Positions 23,166 to 47,769 of a stretch of DNA of 64,000 bases are shown in pieces; the stretch's first letter is position 1; each line of letters starts with the position of its first letter. The notes beneath the pieces are model-generated. The model worked only from the letters and a program-made list of their open reading frames with translations, was not told the origin of the DNA and searched no databases. The translations under genes and the position numbers were made by a program. Source of the stretch: an uncultured Erysipelotrichaceae bacterium (GTDB taxonomy: Bacteria; Bacillota_I; Bacilli_A; Erysipelotrichales; Erysipelotrichaceae); assembly GCA_900315065.1 (NCBI GenBank), contig OMXQ01000004.1, forward strand, positions 1 through 64,000, read 5' to 3'.

Positions 23166-23182
23166 CAATGCATAAAATAAAA

Positions 23183-23396
23183 ACGAGTAGAGGTAGCGGT
23201 GTAGATGAGTACTTCACGGAGTCAGCAGACCATGAAATGAAGGAAAGGCAGTCACCGCCGAACAGATGAAACAGGCGTGTCTCATCTGTGGGGGTACAGA
23301 GAAGATCTGTATCACTCCTTCACTTATGTGAAGAGGCGCTATTGCTTATGGAAAAAACAGCCGTATGCGATAGAGCATGCGGTTTTATTTTATCTG
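23183..23396 (+). ncRNA. Lysine riboswitch (L box) with terminator
   Basis: The leader contains the L-box core: AGAGGTAGCG near the 5' end, GAGTA, then GGAAAGGCAGTCACCGCCGA and a GGGGGTA segment, with the expected surrounding stems (for example CAGATG...CATCTG). It ends in a strong terminator, CCGTATGC/GCATGCGG followed by TTTTATTTT (23361-23392). In this class lysine binding favours the terminator, turning off transport or biosynthesis genes. It sits between a good promoter and an amino-acid ABC importer, which it should control. Confidence 0.9.
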
Positions 23397-31360: not shown

Positions 31361-33487
31361 TTATTTCTCCGGCACGAGGATATTGCAGGAAATTGTATAT
31401 TTGTGATCGCGGCTTGTGATGTTGATCTTTGTACTGCCCGCTTTATGAGCAGTCACAAGCCCGGCTGCAGAGACATCTGCAATGTCCGTATTTTCACTGG
31501 CAAAGACAAGATCCTTCATCGTAATTCCGGCAGGCAGCGCAGTGATTGTAATTGTTTTCGGCTTGCCGACGTGGACTGCCATCGCATAATTTTCCAACAC
31601 GATTTTATCCGCCGTTTTTATACCGGAGGCGGAAGGAAGATAGTGTCTGTCCTTGCGGGTGCAGTGATCTACCGCATGTCCGTTTTCATAGTGGCGGCTG
31701 AGTCCTGGCAGCAATGGTCCTTCCATGATCCTCATTTTCCGATGCAGGCCGAACTTGTTTGCCAGCGTACCTTTGTTGTTGAGTTCAAGATCCGCAACAA
31801 AGCCTGCATTGACATCCGTGCAGATCAATACGGCATCATTGCCTTCAGCAGCCTGTTCGCTGAGGTCTGCAGGTACGTTTGTTTCCGCACTTGTCATCTT
31901 CCCTTCTTCATCATAGAGATGAGCGGTTGCTTTGACTTCTGCTTCAGCCCCTGCGGATAAAAAAGCATCTGCCAAGGCTTCTTTTATCAGATTAATTGAA
32001 AAGTTGATCCCGGCACTGATGCCGGCATCTGCCTTGAGATCCACCTGGTTTTTTGGCCTGCATTCATGAATGGTCCGCATCTTTCCGTTCCTTGTTTCAA
32101 AGCCCAGAACATCTTCCTGACTCAATACGAGTTCTGCTTTTCCTTCCGCATTGACCTTCACCTGCAAGGCAAGCGTCAGATTCACTGCCGGCACATCCGG
32201 CACCGGCAGCTTCACCGTACATAGTGTTAATGTGTCCTCAAGACAATCATTTTCCTGCTGGAAAAAGGAGCGGAGGGAAGAGAGAAAATTCTCCTTGTTC
32301 AGGCGGGAAAAATCTCCTCTCTTCCAGGCGGCTTTTTCAACATTCATGCCTAAGGATTCAACCGTATTGCAATTCAGCCTGATGTAGGCATTCTTCAGAT
32401 CCCGCTTGTCGCTGTACCATTGGTAGGCAAGATGGACATTATTTACAGCAAGAGATGCTGTGAGATTGCTGCCATGAGGCATCTTTTTCTTCAAAGCGGC
32501 TTTCAGTGAAGAACCTGAAGTCGTAATCGTTACCGTGTAGCCGTTGATATCAAAGCTTTTTTCAAGTCCATAAGCCGTATGCTGAATAAAATCCGATTCA
32601 TCTTTGTCTGCTTTGTAAGTCTGCACGCTCACACCGTCTGCACCGATGATATCTGCCTGATCAAAATTCAGATCGGCATCTCCCTGCAGATCAATTTTTT
32701 CTGCGTGATCAATCACATCATAAGGCTTTACATGAAGAGTGATTCCGGTCTGTCCTGCTTCAGTTTCTTCAATCTGATAAACCTGCTGGATGCCGTTTTC
32801 ATCAAACCAGTAAATGATATCTCCTGTCTGTGCTTTTGTATCTGAGGCTGTTGTGACCAGGTTCTTTTCCGGATCGAAAGAGAGCGGCGCAATCTGAACC
32901 GGTTCTTTTCCTGCTTCCAGCTGGATTTCTGTTTTCGTTGTTTCAAATCTGCGGTTATTCATCCAGGACACGGTCTGATCCAGCAGTTTTTCTGCCTGGG
33001 TTTTATCCATCTTTTCCTTTGGATGAAACATGCCGCGCTGATCCAGCGGCATCAGACCGACGGATACTGCTGCCTGTACTTCTTTTGGAAATGAAGCTTC
33101 ATTCAGATCATTGATCTTCTGTTCTTTTCCTGCTTCCTGTCTGCTTAAGCGCATCAAAACAGAAGCAGTCCATTCCTTTGTCAATGCAGCTTCAGGATCA
33201 AAGGCTGTTCCCTGATCAATAACATCCCATTCTGCAGCTGCCTGTACAGACTCAAAATAGGGACTATCTTCAGGGACATTCATGAAGTATGGTTTTTTCT
33301 CTTCATACTGACTGATCCCGGCTTTTTCATCGACTTCCCTGATCCATTCTCCCAGCGTGATGGTATTCTTCACCTGCTTTTGACAGCCTGGTGCTGTTAA
33401 CAGTCCAAGTGAAAGAACAAGTGCCAGGAAAGCTTTAAACCTGCATGCCGGAGGCATTGGATGTAATGGTCGATTCAAGCGTTGCAT
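31361..33487 (-). CDS. SLH/bacterial-Ig lipoprotein of T7SS locus
   Basis: 708 residues (698 if the ATG at 33457 is used). The lipoprotein signal ends LLTAPGC. Next come two or three SLH-like segments (ITLGEWIREVDEKAG; DVIDQGTAFDPEAALTKEW; PLDQRGMFHPKEKMDKTQAEKLLDQ), a long unrecognised beta-rich middle, and a C-terminal Big_2-type Ig fold (TITITALPAG ... ADVSAAGLVTAHKAGSTKINITS). Probably a cell-surface component or partner of the T7SS. Neither possible start has a ribosome-binding site, and the first ATG lies inside the last codons of the recombinase gene, as if the original 5' region was replaced by insertion. Confidence 0.75.
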   Translation of the reverse strand: MQRLNRPLHPMPPACRFKAFLALVLSLGLLTAPGCQKQVKNTITLGEWIREVDEKAGISQYEEKKPYFMNVPEDSPYFESVQAAAEWDVIDQGTAFDPEAALTKEWTASVLMRLSRQEAGKEQKINDLNEASFPKEVQAAVSVGLMPLDQRGMFHPKEKMDKTQAEKLLDQTVSWMNNRRFETTKTEIQLEAGKEPVQIAPLSFDPEKNLVTTASDTKAQTGDIIYWFDENGIQQVYQIEETEAGQTGITLHVKPYDVIDHAEKIDLQGDADLNFDQADIIGADGVSVQTYKADKDESDFIQHTAYGLEKSFDINGYTVTITTSGSSLKAALKKKMPHGSNLTASLAVNNVHLAYQWYSDKRDLKNAYIRLNCNTVESLGMNVEKAAWKRGDFSRLNKENFLSSLRSFFQQENDCLEDTLTLCTVKLPVPDVPAVNLTLALQVKVNAEGKAELVLSQEDVLGFETRNGKMRTIHECRPKNQVDLKADAGISAGINFSINLIKEALADAFLSAGAEAEVKATAHLYDEEGKMTSAETNVPADLSEQAAEGNDAVLICTDVNAGFVADLELNNKGTLANKFGLHRKMRIMEGPLLPGLSRHYENGHAVDHCTRKDRHYLPSASGIKTADKIVLENYAMAVHVGKPKTITITALPAGITMKDLVFASENTDIADVSAAGLVTAHKAGSTKINITSRDHKYTISCNILVPEK

Positions 33488-35235
33488 AACTGGAGACTGT
33501 CAGAGCTTAGAGACGACGGCAATTCATTACTCTCAAATTGAGCATTTGATTGCAATCTTTTTGCTACGTTCATTCTCTTTGGCTTAAATTGCTGAATATC
33601 CTTGTTGTCCTCAATACCAGTTTTATAGACAAATGTGATCTTGAACGGATCAGCATTTCCTTGATCATCATAACCGCCTATAATTACATAATCAACAATA
33701 CTTTCAAATACTTGACGATCAAATTCCTTTATGATACAGCCATCTTTAAGCATTTTCCTCATAGAAGAAATACGTTTTTTTAAAGCTTGTCTTTCGATCT
33801 TCGCATCCTCTGCTGATGTTAACTGTGCTTCTGCACGCTTTATACGATATTCAATCTCTTTTTTCTTTTTCAGGTAGGTGTCATTATCAACATTATTTTC
33901 TAAGCGCAAATCAACCAGTTTGTTCATTTTTGTTTTCAAGTTCGAAATTTGCTGTTGTATGGCCACATTACTCTTGTCAGAATGTTTGGTGTTCAGAACA
34001 TGCTCAGTTCGATCAAGGAATTCTTGTAAAACATCTTGATTATCCTGAGTAATAATCTTATATGATTCCACAAAAGCAGATGTTATAGCTGCCTCCTCAA
34101 TTTGTTTTGTTTCAGGGCAATAAACTCTACCAAATCTTGCCAAAGTCGAGCAAGACCACATTATTTTTTCGTATTTGGTATTTGAATGCCATTGTCTGCG
34201 CGAAAATGTAGCTCCACAAAAGCCACATCGAATCATTCCACTTAGAGCATGTTTCCTAGAATAGAGTGTACGGTAATCACGTTGGTTTACCATTGGATTA
34301 TGCAGCGGTTCAGCTCTTCTCTTCAGAACATACTGTGCCTGGTCAAATAACTCCCTTGAAATAATTGCTTCATGATGATCTTTTAGATAATACTGATCAG
34401 CTTCTCCTTGATTTAGTAAGCGACGTTTTGTAATTGGGTCAAAGGTAAATGTTTTTCCTTGCAACAAATCCCCTGTATATTTTTCATTTCTAATCATTCT
34501 GAGAATTGTTGATTCAGACCATCTTGTAGACCCATATGGTGCCTTAACGCCTTTATCGGCGAGCTCATGCGATATTACTCTACTTCCAGCCCCCTCTACA
34601 TATCGCTGAAAAATATATTTTACAATTTCTGCTTCTTCCGGATTAATAGAAATTTGCTTCGTTTCTTCATCGTAATCATATCCGAATGCTTTTGGGGTTC
34701 CAACGAGCTCACCTCGTGACATCTTCATTGCAAGACCTTTTCTTACATTAGCAGAAATATTTTCAACCTCTTGCTGTGCAACTGAACTAAGAACAACCAA
34801 CAAAAGTTCCCCATCCATTGATAGGGTGTTGATTTTCTCATCCTCAAAATAAACAGCGATATTTTTGGTTTTTAGCATTCGCACATATTTCAGAGTATCA
34901 AGTGTATTTCGTGCGAAGCGGGAAATTGATTTAGTGATTACCATATCAATCTCTCCCTCACAACACGCTTGTATCATTCTCAGAAATTCCTCACGCTTAG
35001 TAACCTGAGTACCAGTAATTCCCTCATCCGCATATATACCAGCCAGTGTCCATTCTGGATTCTTTTCAATTAGATCCGTATAGTATTCAACTTGAGAACG
35101 ATAGCTTGTTTTCTGATCTTCGTGATCAGTGCTAACACGGCAATATGCTGCTACCTTTTTTCGATTAATTGTCTTTCCACTTCTTCTAATAGAATTAGAA
35201 GGATCGGCCTTAATAATATCAACTTTTCCTGACAT
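33475..35235 (-). CDS. Large serine recombinase (site-specific integrase)
   Basis: 586 residues from ATG 35235 (AAAGGAAG eight bases upstream; an ATG two codons earlier is less well spaced). Domains in order: resolvase catalytic domain with the nucleophile Ser in YCRVSTDHEDQ and arginine-rich ISRFARNTLD; the recombinase domain (KAFGYDY ... RMIRNEKYTGDLLQGKTF); a zinc ribbon (CGFCGATFSRRQ ... CSTLARFGRVYCPE); and a coiled coil (about 440-500). Such enzymes integrate and excise phages and conjugative or mobilisable elements between attP and attB. It sits at the left border of the accessory region, its 3' end overlapping the T7SS lipoprotein start. Confidence 0.95.
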   Translation of the reverse strand: MSGKVDIIKADPSNSIRRSGKTINRKKVAAYCRVSTDHEDQKTSYRSQVEYYTDLIEKNPEWTLAGIYADEGITGTQVTKREEFLRMIQACCEGEIDMVITKSISRFARNTLDTLKYVRMLKTKNIAVYFEDEKINTLSMDGELLLVVLSSVAQQEVENISANVRKGLAMKMSRGELVGTPKAFGYDYDEETKQISINPEEAEIVKYIFQRYVEGAGSRVISHELADKGVKAPYGSTRWSESTILRMIRNEKYTGDLLQGKTFTFDPITKRRLLNQGEADQYYLKDHHEAIISRELFDQAQYVLKRRAEPLHNPMVNQRDYRTLYSRKHALSGMIRCGFCGATFSRRQWHSNTKYEKIMWSCSTLARFGRVYCPETKQIEEAAITSAFVESYKIITQDNQDVLQEFLDRTEHVLNTKHSDKSNVAIQQQISNLKTKMNKLVDLRLENNVDNDTYLKKKKEIEYRIKRAEAQLTSAEDAKIERQALKKRISSMRKMLKDGCIIKEFDRQVFESIVDYVIIGGYDDQGNADPFKITFVYKTGIEDNKDIQQFKPKRMNVAKRLQSNAQFESNELPSSLSSDSLQLCNA

Positions 35236-35259
35236 AAACATCTTCCTTTCAATGAAACC

Positions 35260-35433
35260 TTAAGGGACACTATCATTTCTAGCAAGGATGTCGGATATAA
35301 TACTGTAATCACTCATTAGCTGTTTCTTTATGAGCGAAAATTCCGTATCATTGATCAGCTTAGATTCCAACAATCTTGCAAGATAAATAAGCTGAATAGA
35401 GTAACGAATTAATTTTTCATTTTTTGCTTTCAT
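35260..35433 (-). CDS. Small protein preceding the serine recombinase
   Basis: 57 residues from ATG 35433 (GAAGG five bases upstream; a start four codons earlier is possible). Basic, helical, with a LLESKLINDTEFSLIKKQLMSDY segment recalling the short SHOCT-like helices of tiny proteins often coded next to serine recombinases. Lies 24 bases before the recombinase and is probably co-transcribed. A role as a recombination directionality factor is possible but unsupported by sequence. Confidence 0.6.
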   Translation of the reverse strand: MKAKNEKLIRYSIQLIYLARLLESKLINDTEFSLIKKQLMSDYSIISDILARNDSVP

Positions 35434-35458
35434 AGAAACCTTCATTCTTCCATTGACT

Positions 35459-35493
35459 AGAAAAAAGGAACTGTCATTAGTACAACAGCTCCC
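35459..35493 (-). terminator. Terminator between structured RNA and recombinase unit
   Basis: On the minus strand GGAGCTGT pairs with ACAGTTCC (eight bases, one G-T pair) around a ten-base loop and is followed by six T residues. It ends the non-coding stretch upstream of the small ORF and recombinase, either as the end of a free RNA or as an attenuator. Confidence 0.85.
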
Positions 35494-35825
35494 TTATATA
35501 AACTTTCTTTCTACAATCTCATGAATTGCCTTATTTCAACTACTCATCAGATGGCGGACCGTTTACCGCTCCATGGGCATTTCACCCTCCCGAGGATCTC
35601 TCCGAACTGCCCTCATTGCTTTATCCCGGTTACCCAGGGCTGTGACTGGACAGAAGTACCATTATTGCTGCACGTTTCATCGCCTTGCCGGAAACGATCC
35701 GACATTTTAGAACGGCAAATTAATCGCTCTCTTTTTGATATAGTTCTTCACATAAAGGTCCTCGCGTATGGTTCCTTTGGCTGGCTGCAATAGCCCGTGC
35801 AGGGATGTATCTGATGTGTTTTATT
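35461..35825 (-). ncRNA. Candidate structured non-coding RNA
   Basis: About 365 bases without a credible gene on either strand, noticeably GC-richer than the AT-rich surroundings, and with several stems on the minus strand: GGGCA/TGCCC enclosing CGGAGAGATCCTCGG, CCTGGG...CCGGG segments and GGAGCGGTAAACGGTCC. It ends in a perfect intrinsic terminator. A possible promoter precedes it (TTGAAA about 35832, then GATACA 18 bases on). It could be a free RNA of the mobile element or a leader controlling the recombinase. I cannot match it to a known family from memory. Confidence 0.55.
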
Positions 35826-35967
35826 AAGTTTTCAAAGATCTATCTAGGATATCCTGGTAACTATAGTCTTAAGTAGATTCCTTTGATTTAGATCAATTCA
35901 ATTAAGAAATTCACAATCTTTCATAGCATTGAACGTTAAACAAGAAATCTGAGATGAGTAATATCAG

Positions 35968-36327
35968 CTAATGAGAAATACTGAGTACATCATTCATGAT
36001 AGTCTCTATCAAATCTTTCTCATATAAAGACCCGCTGCGAAACATCAGCACAATCCTCTTTTCTCTTTCTGAGGAATCCTTGAGCAATGGTGCATCTCCA
36101 TAGAAAAAACTCATTGGTTTACATGTGACCTTCCCAATCCTCCGAAGCAATTGATCGGATGCATGCTTTTTCCCATTCTCAAGCCTATTGATATAGTTAG
36201 CCTCTACTCCAACGGCATCTCCCAGTTTCTCCTGCGTCAAGCCAAACTCTTCTCTTGCCTCTCTGATCCGACGACCAATATATGCATCATCAGCATCAAA
36301 CAGCAAAGAGTCTGAGTTTTGCTTCAT
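35968..36327 (-). CDS. XRE-family HTH regulator
   Basis: 119 residues from ATG 36327 (AAGGAGG nine bases upstream; a TTG three codons earlier is in frame). HTH at about 20-75: IGRRIREAREEFGLTQEKLGDAVGVEANYINRLENGKKHASDQLLRRIGKV. The C-terminal 45 residues end in a helical segment of unknown role. Likely an autoregulator or control gene of the mobile element, as it sits about 730 bases upstream of the recombinase on the same strand. Target unknown. Confidence 0.85.
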   Translation of the reverse strand: MKQNSDSLLFDADDAYIGRRIREAREEFGLTQEKLGDAVGVEANYINRLENGKKHASDQLLRRIGKVTCKPMSFFYGDAPLLKDSSEREKRIVLMFRSGSLYEKDLIETIMNDVLSISH

Positions 36328-36559
36328 CTTCTTCAACCTCCTTTATCTTTCTGATAATTCAACTATAAGAAAATGAAGTCCTCAGCGGAATGCGCTGGTA
36401 GCCCATATAGTGGTCTGCCAGTACACGTTTATCAAAAAATCCTCATATTTAAGGGATGAACGAGACACCACAAAAATACAAGAATTTCATTTTCTTTGTT
36501 TTTTATTACCATAAGAAACTGTTAGAAAATCAAAGCACTACTGTGGGAAGGAGAGCATT

Positions 36560-36969: not shown

Positions 36970-38604
36970 TTACTTTATCACTCCAAGGATCCTGAGCTGC
37001 TCCTCGATCGCAGCCTGAGCCTTGTTGATCTCTTCATCGTCCTGCTTGATCTTGGTAAGTACGGCATCCAGGTCAACTGGCTTCTCTGGTTCTGAGGTAT
37101 CAACGTAACGAGGAATGTTCAGGTTGAAGTCGTTGCTCTTGATCTCCTCATAAGAAGCAAGGTGAGCATACTTGTCAACGTCTTTTCTATCCTTGTATGT
37201 TCTGAAGATTTTATCGATGTCTTCATCACGCAGAATGTTCCGGGTCTTTACCTTGCTGAATCCCTTGGAGGCATCAATGAATAGGATGTTTCTGTCTGTC
37301 TTCATGTCCTTTTTGAGGATCATGATGATCGTTGGAATACCGGTACCATAGAACAAATTCGCTGGCAGACCAATGATGGTATCAATCCGGTTTTTCTCGA
37401 TGAGCATTTTCCGAATCTTCTCTTCTGTACCGCCACGAAACAGAACACCATGCGGCAGAACGATACCCATGACACCATCATCTTTTCTCAGATGATAAAG
37501 ACCATCCAGCAAGAATGCATAATCTGCCTTGGACTTAGGAGCCAGTGCACCATCACAATCCCTGTAACGTGCATCCTTTTCGTAAGATGGATCAGCAGAC
37601 CACTTTGCTGAATATGGAGGATTCTCAACAACCGCATCAAACATTCTGGGATGATCAACACCCTGCGAATCCGGTCCATCCGGCCAGTCTCTACCAAGAG
37701 TATCTGCGTTGTTCAGATGCACATCCTGGTAAATGACGTTATGCATTAGAAGGTTCATACGTGCGATGTTGAAAGTGCCAGTATTGAGCTCCTGACCATA
37801 GTACTTCACAGCACCAGGCTTTCTTTCACTATTCAGATGCTGGCCAACTGTCAGCAGCAATGATCCAGAACCACATGCCGGGTCAAATACAGAGAACTCT
37901 TCATCCTTGTTTTCTTTGCCATCTGTTACGATACGGGCAATCAAGTCAGATACCTGATGAGGTGTATAGAACTCGCCGCCCTTCTTGCCAGCACTTGCAG
38001 CAAACTGAGAGATCAGGTACTCATAAATCTCACCAAGAATATCTTCACCGGTATCGCTGACGTAACTTGTCTTATCAACCAGTTCCACAATAGCGCTGAG
38101 GGACTTAGCTCTTTCGACCGTGTTTTTACCAAGACGGTCAGCACCAAGATTCATTTCATTGAAGATACCAGTGAAGTCTGCTGCCGAATTCTTGTTAATC
38201 TTTGTAGTAGCATCAAACTCATTGATAGCATTCTGGTATGTCTCTGCCTTGATTGTTTTATCTTTGACCTGCTGAAGGATGGTAGACCATAGGTACTGCG
38301 GCTTGATGGCATAGCCAAGGCCAGAAACCATATCTGCTACATACTCACTCCAACCTTCTTTCAGGTGGTCTTCAGAAGTGCCGCCGCCCTCTTCTTCAAT
38401 GCCACGTTCAAGTGCCTGAGCGACAGTTTCGCCTTCTTGAAGGTCAACGATTTCCTGTTCTACCAGATACTGTTCTTCTTTCTCAGACAAGTACCGATAG
38501 AACATAAAGCCTAGGATATAATTTTTATATTCGGAGGCATCCATGTTGCCGCGGAGGCTGTTAGCCATATTCCAGAGATTGTTCTCAATTTCATCGATTG
38601 TCAT
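36970..38604 (-). CDS. hsdM: Type I restriction-modification methyltransferase HsdM
   Basis: 544 residues. N-terminal HsdM helical domain (TIDEIENNLWNMANSLRG), then the N6-adenine methyltransferase domain with SAM motif FDPACGSGSLLL and catalytic NPPYS. Methylates the recognition site with HsdS. Last gene of the minus-strand unit half-hsdS/hsdR/hsdS/hsdM; AGGAG precedes the ATG. Confidence 0.97.
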   Translation of the reverse strand: MTIDEIENNLWNMANSLRGNMDASEYKNYILGFMFYRYLSEKEEQYLVEQEIVDLQEGETVAQALERGIEEEGGGTSEDHLKEGWSEYVADMVSGLGYAIKPQYLWSTILQQVKDKTIKAETYQNAINEFDATTKINKNSAADFTGIFNEMNLGADRLGKNTVERAKSLSAIVELVDKTSYVSDTGEDILGEIYEYLISQFAASAGKKGGEFYTPHQVSDLIARIVTDGKENKDEEFSVFDPACGSGSLLLTVGQHLNSERKPGAVKYYGQELNTGTFNIARMNLLMHNVIYQDVHLNNADTLGRDWPDGPDSQGVDHPRMFDAVVENPPYSAKWSADPSYEKDARYRDCDGALAPKSKADYAFLLDGLYHLRKDDGVMGIVLPHGVLFRGGTEEKIRKMLIEKNRIDTIIGLPANLFYGTGIPTIIMILKKDMKTDRNILFIDASKGFSKVKTRNILRDEDIDKIFRTYKDRKDVDKYAHLASYEEIKSNDFNLNIPRYVDTSEPEKPVDLDAVLTKIKQDDEEINKAQAAIEEQLRILGVIK

Positions 38605-38616
38605 AGTATTCTCCTG

Positions 38617-39822
38617 TTAATCTACAAACATCTGCTGAAGCAGACCTTTCTTCAGTTCTTTCAGGTCATCAAGCTTACTCTGATGAAGGGTGATAAGGTG
38701 GTCTAACCCTTGAAGTGTATTAGCAATTTTCGTCTGTTCTGTAATTTGGGGAACGGAAATCACCTTATTCATCAGGTCTTTTTTTGTAATACCTTTAATC
38801 GCAGATCCTTGTACTATATGAAGATCTTCCTGTAGTCTTTTATAAAGGGCGTAGCACAGAAATCTCGGTTCGCATTTCATATCACCAAGTGATATGAAAT
38901 CTTGGCTAGTAGTGTAGGAATATGGCATAAATACAAGCTTTCCGACACCAACATGCGTAACAACAGCTACCGAATTTTCTGGTACCAGTTGTGCTGCCGA
39001 ATGGTTTAACCCATCCCTTGAAATATGCTTCTTAATGTCTACATTGAACAACTCGTCTTCGACAACATTTGACGACTGAATCCATGGAATATCTCCATAC
39101 CAGAAAGTATCATTTGCAGTTGAAGGGGTACCTCCGCCGTAAGTCATTCCAACCATTTCGGAGAGCTTACGCTGTTCCCAAGGATCAGTAAACCCAGGAA
39201 ACCTGATCTTCGGAACATTGCTGCCTTCCGCCGGAAACATCTCCTGAAGCAGACATTTCTTCATGGTCTTTAGATCATCAACCTTACGCTGATGAAGGGT
39301 GATAAGGTGGTCGAGCTGGCCGAAAAAAGATCCTACCCGCTTCTGCTCATCCAGTGATGGCATTAAGATAGTTTGCTTACCAAGAGTCTCCCATTCTATG
39401 TTTTTTCTACATTGGCTTGCACCTTCGGTCGTTGCGGCTAAAAAGAATTTTTTTGTATCATCTCTTTTTACCCAAGATTGTACAAACTCGGGATTGCAAT
39501 TATTGAGGTCATAAACTTTGTAGGCTGGCGAAATAATGCCGTGTTCAAAGCGTAAATTGACATTTGCATTACCAAGGTGCAGATTTTGAGCAGAGAGAAT
39601 CAAATCATTTTTCTTTACTCTTAAATACCCAATCGTTGTTGTTCCACGAAAATGACCAAATAATTCTGAATTCAGGAACATGCCGTTGATTGCACAGGAT
39701 AATAGAATATCTTCATTCTCTTTCTCTGTTTTATCTCGCCTTTCAATGAAGGCTTCATCAAACTTACGCTGTTCCCAAGGTTCAGTGAATCCAGGAAATC
39801 TTATCTTTGGTACGTTTGCCAT
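38617..39822 (-). CDS. hsdS: Type I specificity subunit HsdS (two target domains)
   Basis: 401 residues with a clear internal duplication: each half starts NVPKIRFPGFT(E/D)PWEQRK, continues with a variable target-recognition domain, and ends in a DHLITLHQ(R/S)K(V/L)DDLK helix. The two variable domains differ, so a bipartite, asymmetric DNA site is expected. Pairs with HsdM and HsdR. Both halves look intact. Confidence 0.96.
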   Translation of the reverse strand: MANVPKIRFPGFTEPWEQRKFDEAFIERRDKTEKENEDILLSCAINGMFLNSELFGHFRGTTTIGYLRVKKNDLILSAQNLHLGNANVNLRFEHGIISPAYKVYDLNNCNPEFVQSWVKRDDTKKFFLAATTEGASQCRKNIEWETLGKQTILMPSLDEQKRVGSFFGQLDHLITLHQRKVDDLKTMKKCLLQEMFPAEGSNVPKIRFPGFTDPWEQRKLSEMVGMTYGGGTPSTANDTFWYGDIPWIQSSNVVEDELFNVDIKKHISRDGLNHSAAQLVPENSVAVVTHVGVGKLVFMPYSYTTSQDFISLGDMKCEPRFLCYALYKRLQEDLHIVQGSAIKGITKKDLMNKVISVPQITEQTKIANTLQGLDHLITLHQSKLDDLKELKKGLLQQMFVD

Positions 39823-39833
39823 TGTCCCTCGCC

Positions 39834-42800
39834 CTACTCTTCTACAAACTCATCAGCGAAATCATAAATTGCCTGCCGCAGTGAATTTCTGTACTTCACT
39901 TTCTTCAGACTCTTTACCTCATCACTGTCCGATAGGGTCTGATATACCTGAGAACCCTTGAACAGAATTTCGTTAATCGTTCCAGCCTCATCCAGGTCCT
40001 TCTCACCATAATTATGATTTGCAATCAGTTTCAGGAAGTCAGCACCGCTGATCACATCAGTAATGCCCCACTTGTTTCTAAAGTCCAGAATCTTCTTCTG
40101 GATGGAAACCTGCTGCGCTTGGTGGATCACCTTATTGACTTCGATCTCTTTGACCGGATATTCCTGAGAAGAGCCAAGCTCTGGATACTGCTTATTAAAG
40201 ATAGCTGCTGCAGCTTCTCTAACTGCCTTTGCGTATTCAGGATTTTCCAATGTATCCGCAAATTCAAGGATCTTGTCACGGGTCTTTTCAGCTTCTTTCA
40301 TCTGATCATCATGGACCTGATTCATCAGTTTTTTGAGAAGCTCAGTCAGGTACTTATAATCGACATGCACTTCCTTCAAGTGAACGACGGTAAGTTCGAC
40401 GTTAGAAGGTGGTACATTCTCCTTCTTACCAACCGCACGCTTGAGTTCATTCGTCAGTGTGGTCGACAGAATTTTACTTTCATCCTCACTGAGTCCGATC
40501 TTGGCAATCAGTTCTTCTGGATGCTCATAGTCATAGCCTTCCGTCGTTCCGTCCTCGTTTTCCTTATATGGATACTGCTTTAGTTTTGCCAGATTGGCAT
40601 TGTACTTACGCAGCTCATCCAGCATGACCATCTGGTCATCTGTGTCTGCCGGGATATGATTAAAGTTCTCCGTGATGACACGAAGCTTGGCAGCACTCAT
40701 CTTGGTTTCATCCAGCACATTATTAAACGGCTCAGCTAGGATATGATTGTCAATGAGGGTCTCCTTGGTTGGCAACGTGGCATTGGTCTTATTGGAGTAC
40801 TTTGCCAGTGCCTCATTCATATTCTTCTCGTTTTGTTTCGGGAAGCGAAAGTTTACTATCTGGCCCCAAGGCTTATCCTGATTGTTCTGGACTCGATTGG
40901 TTCTGGAATATGCCTGGATCAGCTGAGCTCCATGGAGGGAACGGTCAACGTACAGCGTGTTTAGTCCTGGCGCGTCAAAGCCAGTCAGCAGCTGGTTAAT
41001 GACGATCACAATATCCAGGAACCGACCATCATCTGCACTCTTATCCAAACGTGAGATCACGTCTGCGGAATAGCCCGCAAAGTTATCAGCGTTGTACTCG
41101 GTGCCGAACATTTTCGAGTAATCTCTCATTGCCCGTTCAATGGCGGAGTTATTGTCCATCATCTCGTCGGAGTCGCTGTTGTCATAAGAAAACGTAACAG
41201 CAACCTTCAGGACCAGATCGCCGGTCTTGGCGTGCTCCGCATTGACCCTTTGGAACTCATCATAATACATCATGGCCATTGGCACGCTGGACTTCTGGCC
41301 GCCCACGTGTGTTGTTAACAATGCATTGTACTTTCCATCATTTGAGCGGTTTTTCCAGTTCTGGAAGATGTTCTCTACCACGGCTTTGACATGGCCTGGA
41401 TTATTATCATAGAAGCTTGCCTTGTTCTCATCCTTCAGCTCATCTGGGGTGATACCTTCCATTGCCTGATCTACTAGCTGCTTGGTCAACTCAGTACTTG
41501 AGGAGTTATTGATAATATTTTGCCGTGTATCCTCAAAGTCGACCTTAAAGCCTAGAACGTTATGGTCAGCAATTGCTTCCCTGATCGTGTACTCATGCAG
41601 GCACTCACCAAACACTTCTCTGGTCGGCTTCCCGCCATCCTCGGTATCAAACGTCGGTGTGCCGGTATATCCAATCCAGCCGGAGTGCGGGAATGCCTTC
41701 TGCATTTGCTCAAACTTATCGCTGCTGGTAGAACGGTGTGCCTCATCGACAATAAAGATGAAGTTCTTCTCCGGTGCCTTGAATGTCTTTCTTCTCAGTG
41801 TTAACTTCTGCAGTTTCTGAACGGAAGTTACAATGATGTCACTGTTCTCCGAGCTTAATCTGCGTGCCAGCTCACTGGTGTTATGGGTATCCGAGATTCT
41901 GCCAATATCATCATCGTTGACGTATTCCGGGTCATACGCACGGTACTTCTCAAATGTCTGTCTGGTAAGTTGCTTCCGGTCAACCAGGAACACTACCTTA
42001 TCAACACCCGGCAGTCTGCTGGCAAGCCATGCAGTCTTGAAGCTGGTGATTGTTTTGCCAGATCCGGTGGTATGCCAGATATAGCCAAGCTTCTCTACTC
42101 CCATCTCACCAGGTGCAGTTTTCTTAATCGCATCCAGCACTGCTTCGGTTGCATACACCTGGTAAGGACGCATGACTTTGAGTCCTTCTTGATTCCGCGT
42201 ACCATCCAGAATCATATAGGTTGTAGACATGCGATGAGCAGCAGGAATTGAAAGGAAGAACTCCGCAAACTCTCTCCACTTCAGAACATTGGAATTATCT
42301 GCTTTTCTCTGCCAGTGGAATGCAAAGTCCTTATTGAACCTTCCCGAAGTTGTATTAGCCATGTACTTTGCATCATATGGTGTCATGGCCACCAGTACCT
42401 GCACCAAAGAGAAGATATCAGAGTACTGGTTCTCATCAATATAATTGTGCATCTGATTCAGGGCATCATTAACGTCTACATCTTCTGCCTTCAGCTCAAT
42501 CTGGATCAATGGCAGGCCATTGATCAGTAATGTGACATCAAAACGGCGGTCTTTCTTTCCAGGAATCTTGGCTGGCCGGATGATCTGGTTAACAACCTGA
42601 TAAACCGTATTGCCTGCGCCAATCTGGTCCTGATCAAACACAGTCAAAAAGACATGCCGGCCATCATCCAGATCAATCTCGACCTGAGACACACCATGGT
42701 AGCCATACAGAAACTGTCCTGCCTGATATGGTGTGGTTAAACCATTGATGATCCGTTTGACCTGATCGAACTCGTTGTAGCTCAACGGATGGTCCAGCTT

Positions 42801-42986
42801 ATCCTGATTGTTCTTATACAGGATGTTGGCAAAGTTCTGCCAGAGTTGTTCTGTTGTCTTGATGTTTGGCATGTAAGTCCATAGCTTTGAACGGTAGGCA
42901 CCGTTTTCAGTCACTCCCACCTGTCCGCTGCACAGGGCTTCAATTAATCCTTTTTCAAATTCTGCCTCTTTTTGTCTGTCTGTCAT
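39834..42986 (-). CDS. hsdR: Type I restriction endonuclease HsdR
   Basis: 1050 residues from ATG 42986 (GGGGGG seven bases upstream; an ATG five codons earlier lacks a site). N-terminal nuclease domain with the PD-(D/E)xK-type LIQIELKAEDVD, then an SF2 translocase with Walker A TGSGKT and DEAH box VDEAHRS, and a C-terminal helical region. Translocates and cuts unmodified DNA with HsdM and HsdS. Eleven bases separate it from hsdS. Confidence 0.97.
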   Translation of the reverse strand: MTDRQKEAEFEKGLIEALCSGQVGVTENGAYRSKLWTYMPNIKTTEQLWQNFANILYKNNQDKLDHPLSYNEFDQVKRIINGLTTPYQAGQFLYGYHGVSQVEIDLDDGRHVFLTVFDQDQIGAGNTVYQVVNQIIRPAKIPGKKDRRFDVTLLINGLPLIQIELKAEDVDVNDALNQMHNYIDENQYSDIFSLVQVLVAMTPYDAKYMANTTSGRFNKDFAFHWQRKADNSNVLKWREFAEFFLSIPAAHRMSTTYMILDGTRNQEGLKVMRPYQVYATEAVLDAIKKTAPGEMGVEKLGYIWHTTGSGKTITSFKTAWLASRLPGVDKVVFLVDRKQLTRQTFEKYRAYDPEYVNDDDIGRISDTHNTSELARRLSSENSDIIVTSVQKLQKLTLRRKTFKAPEKNFIFIVDEAHRSTSSDKFEQMQKAFPHSGWIGYTGTPTFDTEDGGKPTREVFGECLHEYTIREAIADHNVLGFKVDFEDTRQNIINNSSSTELTKQLVDQAMEGITPDELKDENKASFYDNNPGHVKAVVENIFQNWKNRSNDGKYNALLTTHVGGQKSSVPMAMMYYDEFQRVNAEHAKTGDLVLKVAVTFSYDNSDSDEMMDNNSAIERAMRDYSKMFGTEYNADNFAGYSADVISRLDKSADDGRFLDIVIVINQLLTGFDAPGLNTLYVDRSLHGAQLIQAYSRTNRVQNNQDKPWGQIVNFRFPKQNEKNMNEALAKYSNKTNATLPTKETLIDNHILAEPFNNVLDETKMSAAKLRVITENFNHIPADTDDQMVMLDELRKYNANLAKLKQYPYKENEDGTTEGYDYEHPEELIAKIGLSEDESKILSTTLTNELKRAVGKKENVPPSNVELTVVHLKEVHVDYKYLTELLKKLMNQVHDDQMKEAEKTRDKILEFADTLENPEYAKAVREAAAAIFNKQYPELGSSQEYPVKEIEVNKVIHQAQQVSIQKKILDFRNKWGITDVISGADFLKLIANHNYGEKDLDEAGTINEILFKGSQVYQTLSDSDEVKSLKKVKYRNSLRQAIYDFADEFVEE

Positions 42987-43008
42987 GTTGATACCCCCCA
43001 TTTGCCAA

Positions 43009-43596
43009 TTACTTCTTTACTTTTCTTAATAGACTTTCAATCACGTACTTTTCTTTGAGTTCCAGGGACTCCTGCCGTTTGCCAGTTAAATGCTTCTGCA
43101 GCACATAAGTATTGCCGATCATCTGTTGAGTATTGATATCTGGCAGGTCCGGAATTACCAAACTTTCCAGCGACTTGATGGTTACCCTCTTGAAGTAGGA
43201 ACTATCCATCCCGTCAAGCAGGGAAGTTCTCACCTGTGGATCACAGTTTAGCAAGAACATCAAATACCGCTTATCTAGTTCTAAGCATGGTTCCAATTTC
43301 ACAAAATTTGAAGTGAGGATGAATCCTGAATGTGCCTTGGAAACCAAGGCTGCAGTATGGCTCAGTATACTGTACACAAGATCACCGGATTCCAGCACTT
43401 CCAAGTCATCATAAGTATGAATATTATTAACTCTTTCATCTGGCATCCAATAGTCTTTCGCTATTCCTGTCAGATCATTCTGTAGATCATCAGCACTATA
43501 AATGAAATAGATTGGAGCTTTATTGCCAGGCGCCATATGAATGCGTGCCTGAGAAACACCTGGTTTTACAGTACAAACCTGAGATAAGTTGACCAT
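43009..43596 (-). CDS. Half-length HsdS-like protein
   Basis: 195 residues, about the size of one HsdS half: a single target-recognition-type domain (LVYSILSHTAALVSKAHSGFILTSNFVKLEP, ESLVIPDLPDINTQQMIGNTY) followed by a coiled-coil-like end (QKHLTGKRQESLELKEKYVIESLLRKVKK). It heads the restriction operon, 23 bases before hsdR; GAGGTC precedes its ATG. It is not a fragment of the neighbouring hsdS, whose conserved repeats it lacks. It may act as a second specificity subunit (as a dimer) or modulate HsdR; unproven. Confidence 0.75.
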   Translation of the reverse strand: MVNLSQVCTVKPGVSQARIHMAPGNKAPIYFIYSADDLQNDLTGIAKDYWMPDERVNNIHTYDDLEVLESGDLVYSILSHTAALVSKAHSGFILTSNFVKLEPCLELDKRYLMFLLNCDPQVRTSLLDGMDSSYFKRVTIKSLESLVIPDLPDINTQQMIGNTYVLQKHLTGKRQESLELKEKYVIESLLRKVKK

Positions 43597-43814
43597 ATCT
43601 TGACCTCAATTCCTTATACGATCATAGTATAGATCAGCAAGCCAAAAAGTTAAAGTATTATTTGTAATTTTCGATAATTACAAATGCCACTTTAGCTAAC
43701 ATATTGTATTAGGATAATTCTGTTATGTAAAAGCCAATGTCAAGTGCTAGTTTCGGATTGATTCAATATTTTTCCTTTGCTGTTGAAGGCATGAGGAAAG
43801 AGTCTCGGATTTTC

Positions 43815-43910
43815 AACAGATTGCAGAAATCCACTATTAATCGTTAGTAGTCTCTTATTACGGTCAAACAAGTTATCATAGATAAGCCAGGAAGCATGAT
43901 AAAAAGCCAT
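43815..43910 (+). repeat. Direct repeat, right copy (decayed small ORF)
   Basis: Matches 36652-36740 in the same orientation. In frame it reads ...DFQQIAEIHY-stop, parallel to EVIAEIRY-stop of the left ORF, but there is no start codon, only a stop shortly upstream. The intervening DNA from 43597 to 43815 shows no gene. Confidence 0.5.
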
Positions 43911-43950
43911 CCAGTATCAGAGATTGGATATCTCTATATCCGGATGGCTT
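43900..43950 (-). terminator. Terminator after esterase-like fragment
   Basis: AAGCCATCC pairs with GGATGGCTT across a 29-base loop that itself folds (GGATATAGAGATATCC); the minus-strand product ends in TTTTTA. Confidence 0.7.
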
Positions 43951-43982
43951 ACTGCATTCATCTGACCCTTGATGAACTCAGC

Positions 43983-44440
43983 TTATTCATGCTTCTTTCT
44001 CGTGTAGAGGGCAATGCCTGCAATAGCAAGAGCAGATGTAAGAATACCAGCAAAGACGTCAACATTTGTCCTTGTAACACCTGTTTGAACGCCTTTCTTA
44101 GATGTACCTTTAATGGTAGTCTTTGCTGTATTGGTATCCGACTTGGTATCTTCTGTCGGCTTGATTTCTTCTGCCGGCTCACTTGTAGGCTTTGTTTCAT
44201 CCTGCTTTTGATCCAGACGGATTGTCTTCCCTGTTTCCGGATCTCTAGCATACTTCTTCATAAAGTCCCACATAAGTCTGGCATCTGGTGCATAGTTCCA
44301 GTGTCCCCAACCATAAATGCGATTGAGTTCAATTTCAACACCGTTAGCATTTGTCAGCAGTCCGTGCCGCTGCCTGATTGCAGCAAAAAGTAAAGAAAGA
44401 TGTTCTTCCCGCTGTCGCTGTTCCTGGCATTTGCACCCCT
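43983..44440 (-). pseudogene. C-terminal remnant of wall-anchored esterase-like protein
   Basis: An open frame of about 150 codons with no usable start. It reads HGLLTNANGVEIELNRIYGWGHWNYAPDARLMWDF (written here in part) resembling the catalytic-His end of PHB-depolymerase/esterase-type secreted hydrolases, then a Lys/Thr/Glu-rich spacer, and a sortase-like tail: GVQTG, hydrophobic helix (VFAGILTSALAIAGIALY) and RKKHE. The ATG at 44273 is internal and would give only the tail. The 5' part, with the nucleophile Ser, has been lost. Confidence 0.6.
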
Positions 44441-44501
44441 CCTTCCTGTGAGATGTTGTAATCGTTAAAATGTATATCTACCGTTAAAAGGTGCAGAAAC
44501 A

Positions 44502-46865
44502 TTAGAATGATTTATGATCGCTGTCAATGTATCCGAAGTTCTCCCTGACCTTCTGATGCGTCGTCTTATCATTAAGCATGTAGGCTACACGCGGGACTGT
44601 CGTCATTCCCTTCTCCCAGTAGCCGTCATTAATATCAGTCACATATTTCTTCCATGCAACTCCAATAAACACTTCCTTGTTGGGATCAAGTTTCTCCTTG
44701 GATTCCTCGGATTCCCATGGTGCGTCTGCTACAGGAGTCGAAGTGCCGTCGACCATCACTTTGAAGTTCTTCATCGGCACAGCGGTTGACGTGCATTCGC
44801 CAATACCTACAAAGCCATATCCGGCGATATGGCAATAAACTGTATCTCCGACTTGAACGTTATAAATAGATTTCCCGCTGCCGCCAAGGTTCGCGGACAG
44901 GAATCCGTATTTCAGCGCATCTGGCCAGCTTCTTTCTGCATAGCCGACTGTAAATTCACGGCCCTTCTCGTTTCTGAAGAAGTCCTTCTCATCGTCATCG
45001 GCCCATCCACCAGCGATTTCCTTAATGGCGTCCGGATTCCAGATGTCACTTGCCATTCTCAGATAGATCTCAGCCCGGTCTTCGATGCTTTGCTTACTGA
45101 AGTCAGGAATCGCATGAAAGCCGTACTCGTTAACGACCTTGAGGAATTTCGGATTGTTCGTGTAAGCTGTGTCGTTCAACGCTTGAGCAAGGATGTTGTC
45201 TCCCGCGTACTTCTGGACCTTCTCAGAGTATTTCATTGCCTGATAGCTTCTGTTCTTGTCTCGGGTGAGCAGGATCAGATTTCCGATCTGATTCCGGGTG
45301 GATTCGAAATCCTCGTAGTCGGTGAAGCTGTCCTCGTAGTCCTCATATTTATCCGGAAGGATATGCTCAATATCGTAAGTGTTTCCCTGACACTTGCGGT
45401 CAACGTACTCCTCGAAATGCGACGGATTACCCATCAGCACATTCACATAGGAAGTGAAGCGTGCGAGGATATGAAGCATGTAACGTCCGGAGAACCGGTT
45501 CAGACTGAACCTGGTGATTCCCTCGACGGACACGTCCATACGGCGGAGTGTACGGACATAGACCATGCCGATCGTCTTACAGTCCTCATTGCGGATATCC
45601 TGCATCACATGAAACAGCAAATACTTATTCGTGTTCCAGTTAACCTTCTTGAAATTCAGGATTCGGATGGTTGCAAAGTCGTCCACGAACTTTGCGGTCA
45701 TCTGTATTTTCTTTTTTACGATGTCGTCCGTGTCGTCATTTTTAATGGCAGCGATGGCAAGCATGGTCTGGTAGCTCAGATCACGGTTTGCGTTGTAGAA
45801 GACCTCTTCATATCCGGGCGTCATCCTGCTGCCATAGCCTTTCATCCGAAGATAGATATCAGTGACACGTGTCATTTCAGTGAGAACAAATTCCTTGTAG
45901 TCCTTCGGCTTTACAAGGCCCATCGCCGTCCGGGCGTTGTTGCTTACCCAGGTATGGAACTTGTCGCCAAGAAGTTCGTAATCCTCATCTTTAGCGCCGC
46001 GCTTGTTGTCTCGCATGGAATTGGCATATTTTGCGCGAAGCCAAATAGAGATGAATTCAACATCCTGCGTATTCACCATGCCACTCGTATCGTAAGAAGA
46101 TGCGTTCTTGATACGGTTGATGTTGTCCTGCCACTTCCGATTTACCTCAATGCGGTCAGCTTCTGCAACCTGCTGGATGATATAAGCCTTCATCATCTCA
46201 GCGCTGTTCAGACTCAGGCCTCGGTCATTCATTGTCAGGAAAATCGTGTGTGCTTCGTCGTCAGATGGTGTGTCGATCTCCAGAAGGAGGACCTTCTCGA
46301 TCAGCCAGTTAATAAAGTAAGGAAGCGCTTCTCCCTTCAGCTCGTCAGGGAAGATGTCCTCTATGTCCTGGTACCGGTCAAGCATATTCTGTGAGCTCTC
46401 ATTCACTGGCACATAGGTTTCATCTTTTTGCAATAGAGCCTGCATGCAAGTCCCGCGGTCGGCAACATTGATATTGAAGCTCTTCTTACTGAAAGCCTTT
46501 GAATAGATCATGTCATCCAGCGGGACAAGGAGATCTTCATCCTTGACAGTTTCTTTTTGCAGGTTGTTCAGATAGATGATGAGAAGTGTTAGCGAGGTCA
46601 GACGCTGCTGGCCATCGATGATTTTCTTTATGGAACCGCCAGTACAGATAATGCATCCCATATAGTAAAAGCCATAGTTCATGACTTCTTCCGGCGTATC
46701 ATGATCATCCGGATCATAAAATTCCTCAAATGTGCCCTGGAAATCGGCGAGCATCTGCTCGATCTGCTTCTGCCCCCACCGGTATTCCCGCTGAAAGTAA
46801 TCGACGGTGTATTTGCGCCCACTCAGAATTGTTTTGAGCGTGTCTGTTTTGTCAATTTTCTGCAT
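44502..46865 (-). CDS. GmrSD-type DUF262/HNH nuclease with EVE-like tail
   Basis: 787 residues. N-terminal DUF262 (GmrS-like) domain with YTVDYFQREYRWG and the ParB/Srx-type IIDGQQRLTSLTLL; then a GmrD/DUF1524 HNH-type nuclease with YDIEHILPDK and NQIGNLILLTRDKN; and a C-terminal about 140-residue domain (YNVQVGDTVYCHIAGYGFVGIGECT) resembling EVE/PUA-like modules that read modified bases. Enzymes of this group are type IV, modification-dependent phage-defence nucleases. GAGGAA precedes the ATG. It stands upstream of the type I system on the same strand but as a separate unit. Confidence 0.88.
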   Translation of the reverse strand: MQKIDKTDTLKTILSGRKYTVDYFQREYRWGQKQIEQMLADFQGTFEEFYDPDDHDTPEEVMNYGFYYMGCIICTGGSIKKIIDGQQRLTSLTLLIIYLNNLQKETVKDEDLLVPLDDMIYSKAFSKKSFNINVADRGTCMQALLQKDETYVPVNESSQNMLDRYQDIEDIFPDELKGEALPYFINWLIEKVLLLEIDTPSDDEAHTIFLTMNDRGLSLNSAEMMKAYIIQQVAEADRIEVNRKWQDNINRIKNASSYDTSGMVNTQDVEFISIWLRAKYANSMRDNKRGAKDEDYELLGDKFHTWVSNNARTAMGLVKPKDYKEFVLTEMTRVTDIYLRMKGYGSRMTPGYEEVFYNANRDLSYQTMLAIAAIKNDDTDDIVKKKIQMTAKFVDDFATIRILNFKKVNWNTNKYLLFHVMQDIRNEDCKTIGMVYVRTLRRMDVSVEGITRFSLNRFSGRYMLHILARFTSYVNVLMGNPSHFEEYVDRKCQGNTYDIEHILPDKYEDYEDSFTDYEDFESTRNQIGNLILLTRDKNRSYQAMKYSEKVQKYAGDNILAQALNDTAYTNNPKFLKVVNEYGFHAIPDFSKQSIEDRAEIYLRMASDIWNPDAIKEIAGGWADDDEKDFFRNEKGREFTVGYAERSWPDALKYGFLSANLGGSGKSIYNVQVGDTVYCHIAGYGFVGIGECTSTAVPMKNFKVMVDGTSTPVADAPWESEESKEKLDPNKEVFIGVAWKKYVTDINDGYWEKGMTTVPRVAYMLNDKTTHQKVRENFGYIDSDHKSF

Positions 46866-47153: not shown

Positions 47154-47735
47154 TCACTTGAAATAGCTGATAGAAGAGCGATACCTTTTCTTAATGATTC
47201 TGAACAATGTTGCTCTGCTTACATTTAGCTTTGAACACATATATTTCTGAGTGATTTCGCCTCTCTTCCATTTCTCATACAATTCTTCTAAAAGAATATA
47301 ATCGATAGCTTTGGGTTGCCTACCTTTATATTTTCCTTCCTTTTTGGCAATCGCAATTCCCTCAGCTTGGCGCTGTCGGATTTGAGACCGCTCCAGTTCT
47401 GCCATTGCAGCAAAAACAGTTAGCATAAACTGCCCCTGTGGAGTATTAGTATCAATCCTTTCCTTCTCTGACACAAAAGATACCTTTTTCTGTTGCAACT
47501 CATCAATGATATCCAGAAGGTCATGTGTCGATCTTGCAAGACGTGAAATGGATTCAACATAAAGGATGTCACCTTCACGAATGAAGCTTAACATTTCCTG
47601 TAAGCCTGGCCGATCTCTGCTTTTGCCAGAAACCATATCTGTATAGATCTTTTCGCAGCCTAAATCCTTCAATATCTTCTCTTGTCTTGCCGTGTTTTGA
47701 TCAACAGTACTGCATCGGCAATATCCTATCTTCAT
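47154..47735 (-). CDS. Small serine resolvase/invertase
   Basis: 193 residues from ATG 47735 (MKIGYCRC); the longer frame starts at a TTG without a site. Catalytic domain with nucleophile in CRCSTVDQNTARQ, SRLARSTHDLLDI, MAELERSQIRQRQAEG, and a C-terminal Hin-type HTH (GEITQKYMCSKLNVSRATLFRIIKKR). Family of Tn3 resolvases and DNA invertases. AT-rich dyads lie just upstream and could be its sites. Confidence 0.93.
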   Translation of the reverse strand: MKIGYCRCSTVDQNTARQEKILKDLGCEKIYTDMVSGKSRDRPGLQEMLSFIREGDILYVESISRLARSTHDLLDIIDELQQKKVSFVSEKERIDTNTPQGQFMLTVFAAMAELERSQIRQRQAEGIAIAKKEGKYKGRQPKAIDYILLEELYEKWKRGEITQKYMCSKLNVSRATLFRIIKKRYRSSISYFK

Positions 47736-47769
47736 TTCAGAGACCCCCGTATATTTCAATAGAGTATAA

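Follow-up and report, generated by a model that had tools for sequence, protein, structure and literature searches.

The element canT of Tn916 is a cis-acting, orientation-specific and processive antiterminator needed for the expression of the conjugation genes (Wirachman and Grossman 2024, PMC11658703). It most likely works as RNA, with a direct contact with RNA polymerase being suspected and no further host factor named, and it is active over heterologous and distant terminators without other genes of the element (PMC11658703). canT works in one orientation only, leaves excision unaffected and, when supplied elsewhere, did not complement a Tn916 mutant; the key Tn916 terminator lies across the circle junction (PMC11658703). 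RNA-based processive antitermination of long operons has also been described for EAR of B. subtilis eps, put of phage HK022 and conAn2 of pLS20 (PMC11658703, PMC8955417), while rRNA leaders bear a boxB-boxA-boxC antitermination system, and rRNA-type boxA is the kind of sequence bound by NusB-S10 in known antitermination systems (PMC10931766). The pemK RNA, RF02913, is a curated Rfam family of unknown function, typed as cis-regulatory.

The window analyzed here is the whole stretch of 64,000 nucleotides from an uncultured Erysipelotrichaceae bacterium. The original prediction had placed in it a GC-rich structured block directly upstream of a serine recombinase and its small partner gene, and the analysis agreed with this layout, the RNA being encoded on the same (minus) strand as the recombinase. 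The RNA block (35840-35461, minus strand) is intergenic, with an HTH_3 gene on its 5' side and a 61-aa ORF followed by the recombinase on its 3' side, all on the minus strand. Reading along this strand, the order is boxA and helix P1 (35840-35796), the RNA core (35665-35571), the terminator (35495-35461), the small ORF and the recombinase. The main features of the locus are the following:

44502-46865, minus strand: GmrSD-type nuclease gene, in the island of the window RNA
35968-36336, minus strand: HTH_3 regulator gene, 122 aa, 5' of the RNA
35860-35865, minus strand: TATAGT, which may be a -10 element, some 20 nt 5' of boxA; weak and without a good -35
35822-35840, minus strand: boxA-like antitermination signal, GATCTTTGAAAACTTAATA, one of 19 bases off the congener rRNA leader boxA, GATCTTTGAAAACTGAATA
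35571-35665, minus strand: pemK RNA core (RF02913), starting with AUAAUGGUACU at 35665-35655 and holding helices P2, P3 and P4
35461-35495, minus strand: intrinsic terminator separating the RNA from the first ORF, with 14 pairs (35495-35464) followed by a T run
35260-35445, minus strand: small ORF, 61 aa, without Pfam match
33475-35241, minus strand: large serine recombinase, 588 aa, with Resolvase PF00239, Recombinase PF07508 and Zn_ribbon_recom PF13408

The 5' edge of the block should better be put at about 35865, to include the possible -10 element. The small ORF was similar, by eye, to small ORFs preceding recombinases in three related loci (L038, L132 and L135). The absence of a credible gene within the block was also supported, as the 90-aa plus-strand ORF lying over it (35521-35793) is antisense to the RNA, like the discredited orf5 that overlaps canT in Tn916; annotators may wrongly call it a gene.

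The covariance-model search against Rfam 15 by cmscan, which had been proposed as a check, returned RF02913 at 35665-35571 on the minus strand with 63.3 bits and an E-value of 4.8e-9 over the whole window, the gathering cut-off of the family being 34.8 bits. The core of the window RNA covers the full model, from position 1 to 61, and this was the sole Rfam match for the block. The earlier statement that no known family fits was therefore wrong. As the cis-regulatory type implies, the window RNA precedes coding genes on its own strand, namely the small ORF and the recombinase.

RF02913 also matched three Tn916-carrying loci (L009-L011) with 55.0 bits, above the cut-off. The first of these, L009, is Tn916 itself, being 99.9% identical to plasmid copies annotated as 'excisionase from transposon Tn916'; the match sits between orf8 and xis, and the antisense orf5 of this locus has 83 codons with an Ala at codon 30, in agreement with the published orf5 (PMC11658703). 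Published canT coordinates, which are counted from the orf8 stop codon, were then laid over the match. The canT(S3) mutation, ATA to TGC at +283, coincides exactly with bases 1 to 3 of the RF02913 core (AUA|AUGAUACU), and the 162-bp canT deletion, from +229 to +390, spans the whole core; reporter antitermination was below 5% for each of these two mutants (PMC11658703). The AUA of the S3 site is intact in the window, where the core starts ATAATGGTACT, and ATAATG occurs in 28 of the 30 loci that the Rfam model detected. The window RNA also shares the location of canT, with the common RF02913 core, an HTH gene on the 5' side and a recombinase on the 3' side, and both RNAs have the boxA on their 5' side.

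Since RF02913 matches Tn916 at canT and canT(S3) hits the three bases with which the core begins, pemK RNAs in general are very probably canT-type, cis-acting processive antiterminators used by mobile elements to switch on their own genes. For the window, there is good reason to believe that the block is such a canT-type RNA, composed of a boxA and about 270 nt of structured RNA with the RF02913 core, which heads the recombination operon of a mobile island. Both RF02913 and canT were already known; the main gain lies in the link between them and in the boxA. The canT paper makes no mention of Rfam, NusB or 'boxA' (PMC11658703), and in the literature searched, which excluded the original description of the motif, we found neither a functional study of the pemK motif nor a link between pemK RNA and canT nor the boxA, so that the authors who first described the motif may already have proposed a role. 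The window locus differs from Tn916 in that its RNA heads the operon of a large serine recombinase, in an island with restriction genes, instead of xis-int, and in that a terminator stands immediately behind the RNA.

Conservation extends beyond the 61-nt Rfam model. In the window and its relatives the RNA reaches about 170 nt further 5', to include boxA, helix P1 and the conserved boxes 1-3, and about 20-30 nt further 3', to include helix P5. The minus-strand fold of 35860-35440 had an energy of -115.8 kcal/mol and a z of -2.06 versus shuffles, with z=+0.56 for the plus strand; the block thus folds better than shuffles on the minus strand only. Additional elements of the extended structure are listed below:

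35796-35802, minus strand: 5' arm of P1, CTGCACG, from the pairing test
35757-35767, minus strand: conserved box 1, consensus ACGCCAUGACC, window ACGCGAGGACC
35719-35729, minus strand: conserved box 2, window GAGCGANNAAN; the alignment of loci shows GAGCGANAA
35675-35684, minus strand: conserved box 3, GCCAUGAC-like, window GGCGATGAAA
35668-35674, minus strand: 3' arm of P1, CGTGCAG, from the pairing test
35554-35569, minus strand: P5 hairpin, 3'-adjacent to the core

Covariation was assessed helix by helix: for each locus, the pairing of the 5' arm with the 3' arm from that locus was compared with its pairing to the 3' arms from every other locus, and the reversed strand served as a composition control. 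These pairing tests replaced an RNAalifold run on a MAFFT alignment of 29 loci, which returned a 3-pair hairpin only, as the variable loops misalign. Six helices covary between loci (P1, H_A, H_B, P2, P3 and P5), as had been demanded of a genuine RNA. P1, which joins the segment just 3' of boxA to the bases just 5' of AUAAUG and encloses the 5' domain, showed a pairing score of 18.6 with its own arm versus 12.0 with the others over 60 loci (z=20.6; control z=4.8), and no permutation reached the own score; in the window it is present in the unconstrained minimum-energy fold. The remaining five helices gave z values of 8.2 to 10.2 with controls of 1.8 to 4.3, the values for P5 being 8.2 and 4.3. 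H_A and H_B are weaker in the window than in most relatives, which was counted against the canT-type reading. Boxes 1-3 are conserved across the aligned loci well 5' of the Rfam model.

The boxA was examined in 79 non-redundant loci by taking the closest match to CTTTGAAAACTGAATA within the 270 bases that lie 60-330 nt 5' of the core. Matches with at most three mismatches occurred in 49 of these loci, with 0.7 expected from dinucleotide shuffles, and matches with at most four in 60 (3.8 expected). A genome of the same genus carries GATCTTTGAAAACTGAATA about 100 bases 5' of its 16S rRNA and GTTCTTTGAAAACTGAATA between 16S and 23S rRNA; this near-identity indicates that the RNA leader carries the rRNA-type boxA of the genus itself. 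The leader therefore has the boxA sequence of NusB-S10-type antitermination, and NusB-S10 would take part at the window RNA, where, unlike in an rRNA leader, the boxA is followed by a large structured RNA and not by rRNA. The active 452-bp canT fragment starts inside boxA (TTGAAAAC...) and includes only its 3' part; this reporter was thus active without a complete boxA, an argument against a strict boxA/NusB-S10 requirement. In a 400-bp canT fragment, S3 hardly changed the activity, and some shorter fragments stayed active (PMC11658703), so that the link between structure and activity is not simple. As for the other RNA antiterminators, put and conAn2 are likened to the window RNA by their published description, and conAn also requires a protein, ConAn1; the EAR covariance model gave nothing that reached its threshold in the window and no match at E<=1 in 35200-36500.

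Of the 392 genomes sampled from the phylum, 29 carried the family, with up to 5 copies per genome, and the window genome has one copy. Exact-pattern scans added at least 118 further stretches in named genomes, mostly Bacillota by title, and 41 in viral contigs; pattern matches are partly due to chance, and such matches were excluded. No DNA homologous to the window copy was found in plasmids, whereas 11-23% of this copy recurs in four fragments labelled as phage and lacking annotation. Homologues adjoining serine recombinases, which had been suggested as something to look for, were common. Among the 75 main downstream genes were matches to the serine recombinase catalytic domain (43), the tyrosine integrase domain (12) and PemK (4), so that, despite the family name, most relatives of the window RNA precede recombinases and not pemK. 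Among 60 upstream genes, sigma-70 region 4 was found in 33 and HTH_16 in 8; the slot held by HTH_3 in the window is usually taken by such sigma-70 region 4-like or HTH_16 (Tn916 Orf8 type) proteins. We infer that this neighbourhood represents the module for regulation and recombination of integrative elements.

The strong intrinsic terminator that had been anticipated was recovered as the 14-pair stem and T run, and the region contains 2 terminator-like sites versus 0.8 expected. Over the 79 loci, 12 (about 15%; 1.1 expected) had a terminator-like hairpin in the stretch of about 250 bases that follows the RNA. As a recognizable adjacent terminator is present in only this fraction of loci, a leader gate would be a minority feature and not a general one. 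The anticipated promoter fared less well, the lone weak TATAGT speaking for it and the scan against it: no sigma-70 consensus promoter was found at the 5' end of the block. Nor did the scan find a sigma-70-like promoter between the terminator and the recombinase, in favour of the canT-type reading.

These data were weighed against other explanations. The RNA might be a local, non-processive attenuator or riboswitch that senses a ligand, a protein or the ribosome state and picks either the terminator at 35495-35461 or an antiterminator fold, as would suit the terminator directly 3' of the window RNA, those in 12 of the 79 loci and the Rfam type of the family; however, most homologues are without an adjacent terminator, the Tn916 homologue needs no other gene of the element to overcome terminators that are distant or heterologous, and boxA would be left unexplained, which makes this explanation unlikely. 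Considerably less probable still is a separate small RNA that is made by the mobile element, acts in trans and ends at the terminator (35461): the 3' terminator, the high structure and the strong conservation of the single-stranded boxes would agree with it, but a canT copy placed elsewhere failed to complement the Tn916 mutant, a terminator is missing at that place from most homologues, and the RNA lies 5' of recombination genes on the same strand in most loci. A DNA-level recombination or transfer site merely containing inverted repeats, although suggested by these repeats and by the adjoining recombinase, is the most improbable, as the distance to the recombinase varies between loci, the RNA also precedes pemK genes, the Tn916 copy is orientation-dependent with no effect on excision and the covariance model matches one strand.

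The canT-type antiterminator is thus preferred, and the terminator is more likely a gate opened to polymerase by the cis-acting RNA than the 3' end of a discrete RNA. The original prediction holds insofar as the block is a mobile-element RNA most likely gating the recombinase through termination; it does not hold in regarding the RNA as family-less and the terminator as the end of a stand-alone transcript. In the proposed mechanism, polymerase would initiate on the minus strand at a point 5' of 35840 and transcribe boxA and the RNA, which would fold while nascent and modify the elongating enzyme, with host NusB-S10 binding boxA and the AUAAUGAUACU core and the helices acting on polymerase. The modified polymerase would ignore the terminator at 35495-35461 and later ones, reading the small ORF and the recombinase, while polymerase that had not passed through the RNA would stay unmodified and stop. 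After excision and circularization the modified enzyme might read genes beyond the joined ends. The activity of the window copy as an antiterminator, the participation of NusB-S10 and the coupling to excision are putative.

On a broader scale, there is about an even chance that RF02913 is the core of a widespread antiterminator class with an rRNA-type boxA, borrowing the host NusB-S10 machinery, by which Bacillota mobile elements license serine and tyrosine recombinases and the genes beyond. By the link to canT, an orphan RNA family gains a testable function, and a single experimental case, Tn916 canT, would become a class, which would explain the occurrence of one RNA before unrelated genes. 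The boxA suggests NusB-S10 as a host factor, the alignment names the bases of interest, and elements moving resistance and defence genes would have one switch in common.

Concerning the island itself, it also encodes a type I restriction system on the recombinase strand. The defence genes at 36970-46865 (minus strand) comprise HsdM, HsdS, a 1055-aa HsdR-like protein (by eye) and the GmrSD-type nuclease, and a small serine resolvase gene lies at 47154-47759. In the search for the island ends, relatives having the left-flank gene showed no common right flank, and no direct repeat of at least 11 bases linked 33401-33560 with 36.4-52 kb. Elsewhere in the window, a lysine riboswitch (RF00168, 85.2 bits) was found at 23180-23349 on the plus strand.

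Finally, few other close boxA matches were present in the window genome. Two at contig ends look like rRNA leaders, and one (L194) is chance-like. In the last one (L192, contig C37, about 18544), a boxA, CCTTGAAAACTGAATA, stands 3' of a TTGACT-TATAAT-like promoter and is followed first by GTCGCCATGATATGAGCG and then by a gene resembling an excisionase and a reading frame resembling an integrase, with no RF02913 match; it may be a diverged canT-type leader missed by Rfam. In part of the pemK RNA loci, such as L037, L062 and L073, a hairpin (e.g., GTGAGAGG...CCTCTCAC) occurs directly 5' of boxA, which, with z=7.1 versus 3.0 for the control, is suggestively reminiscent of the boxB of rRNA leaders.
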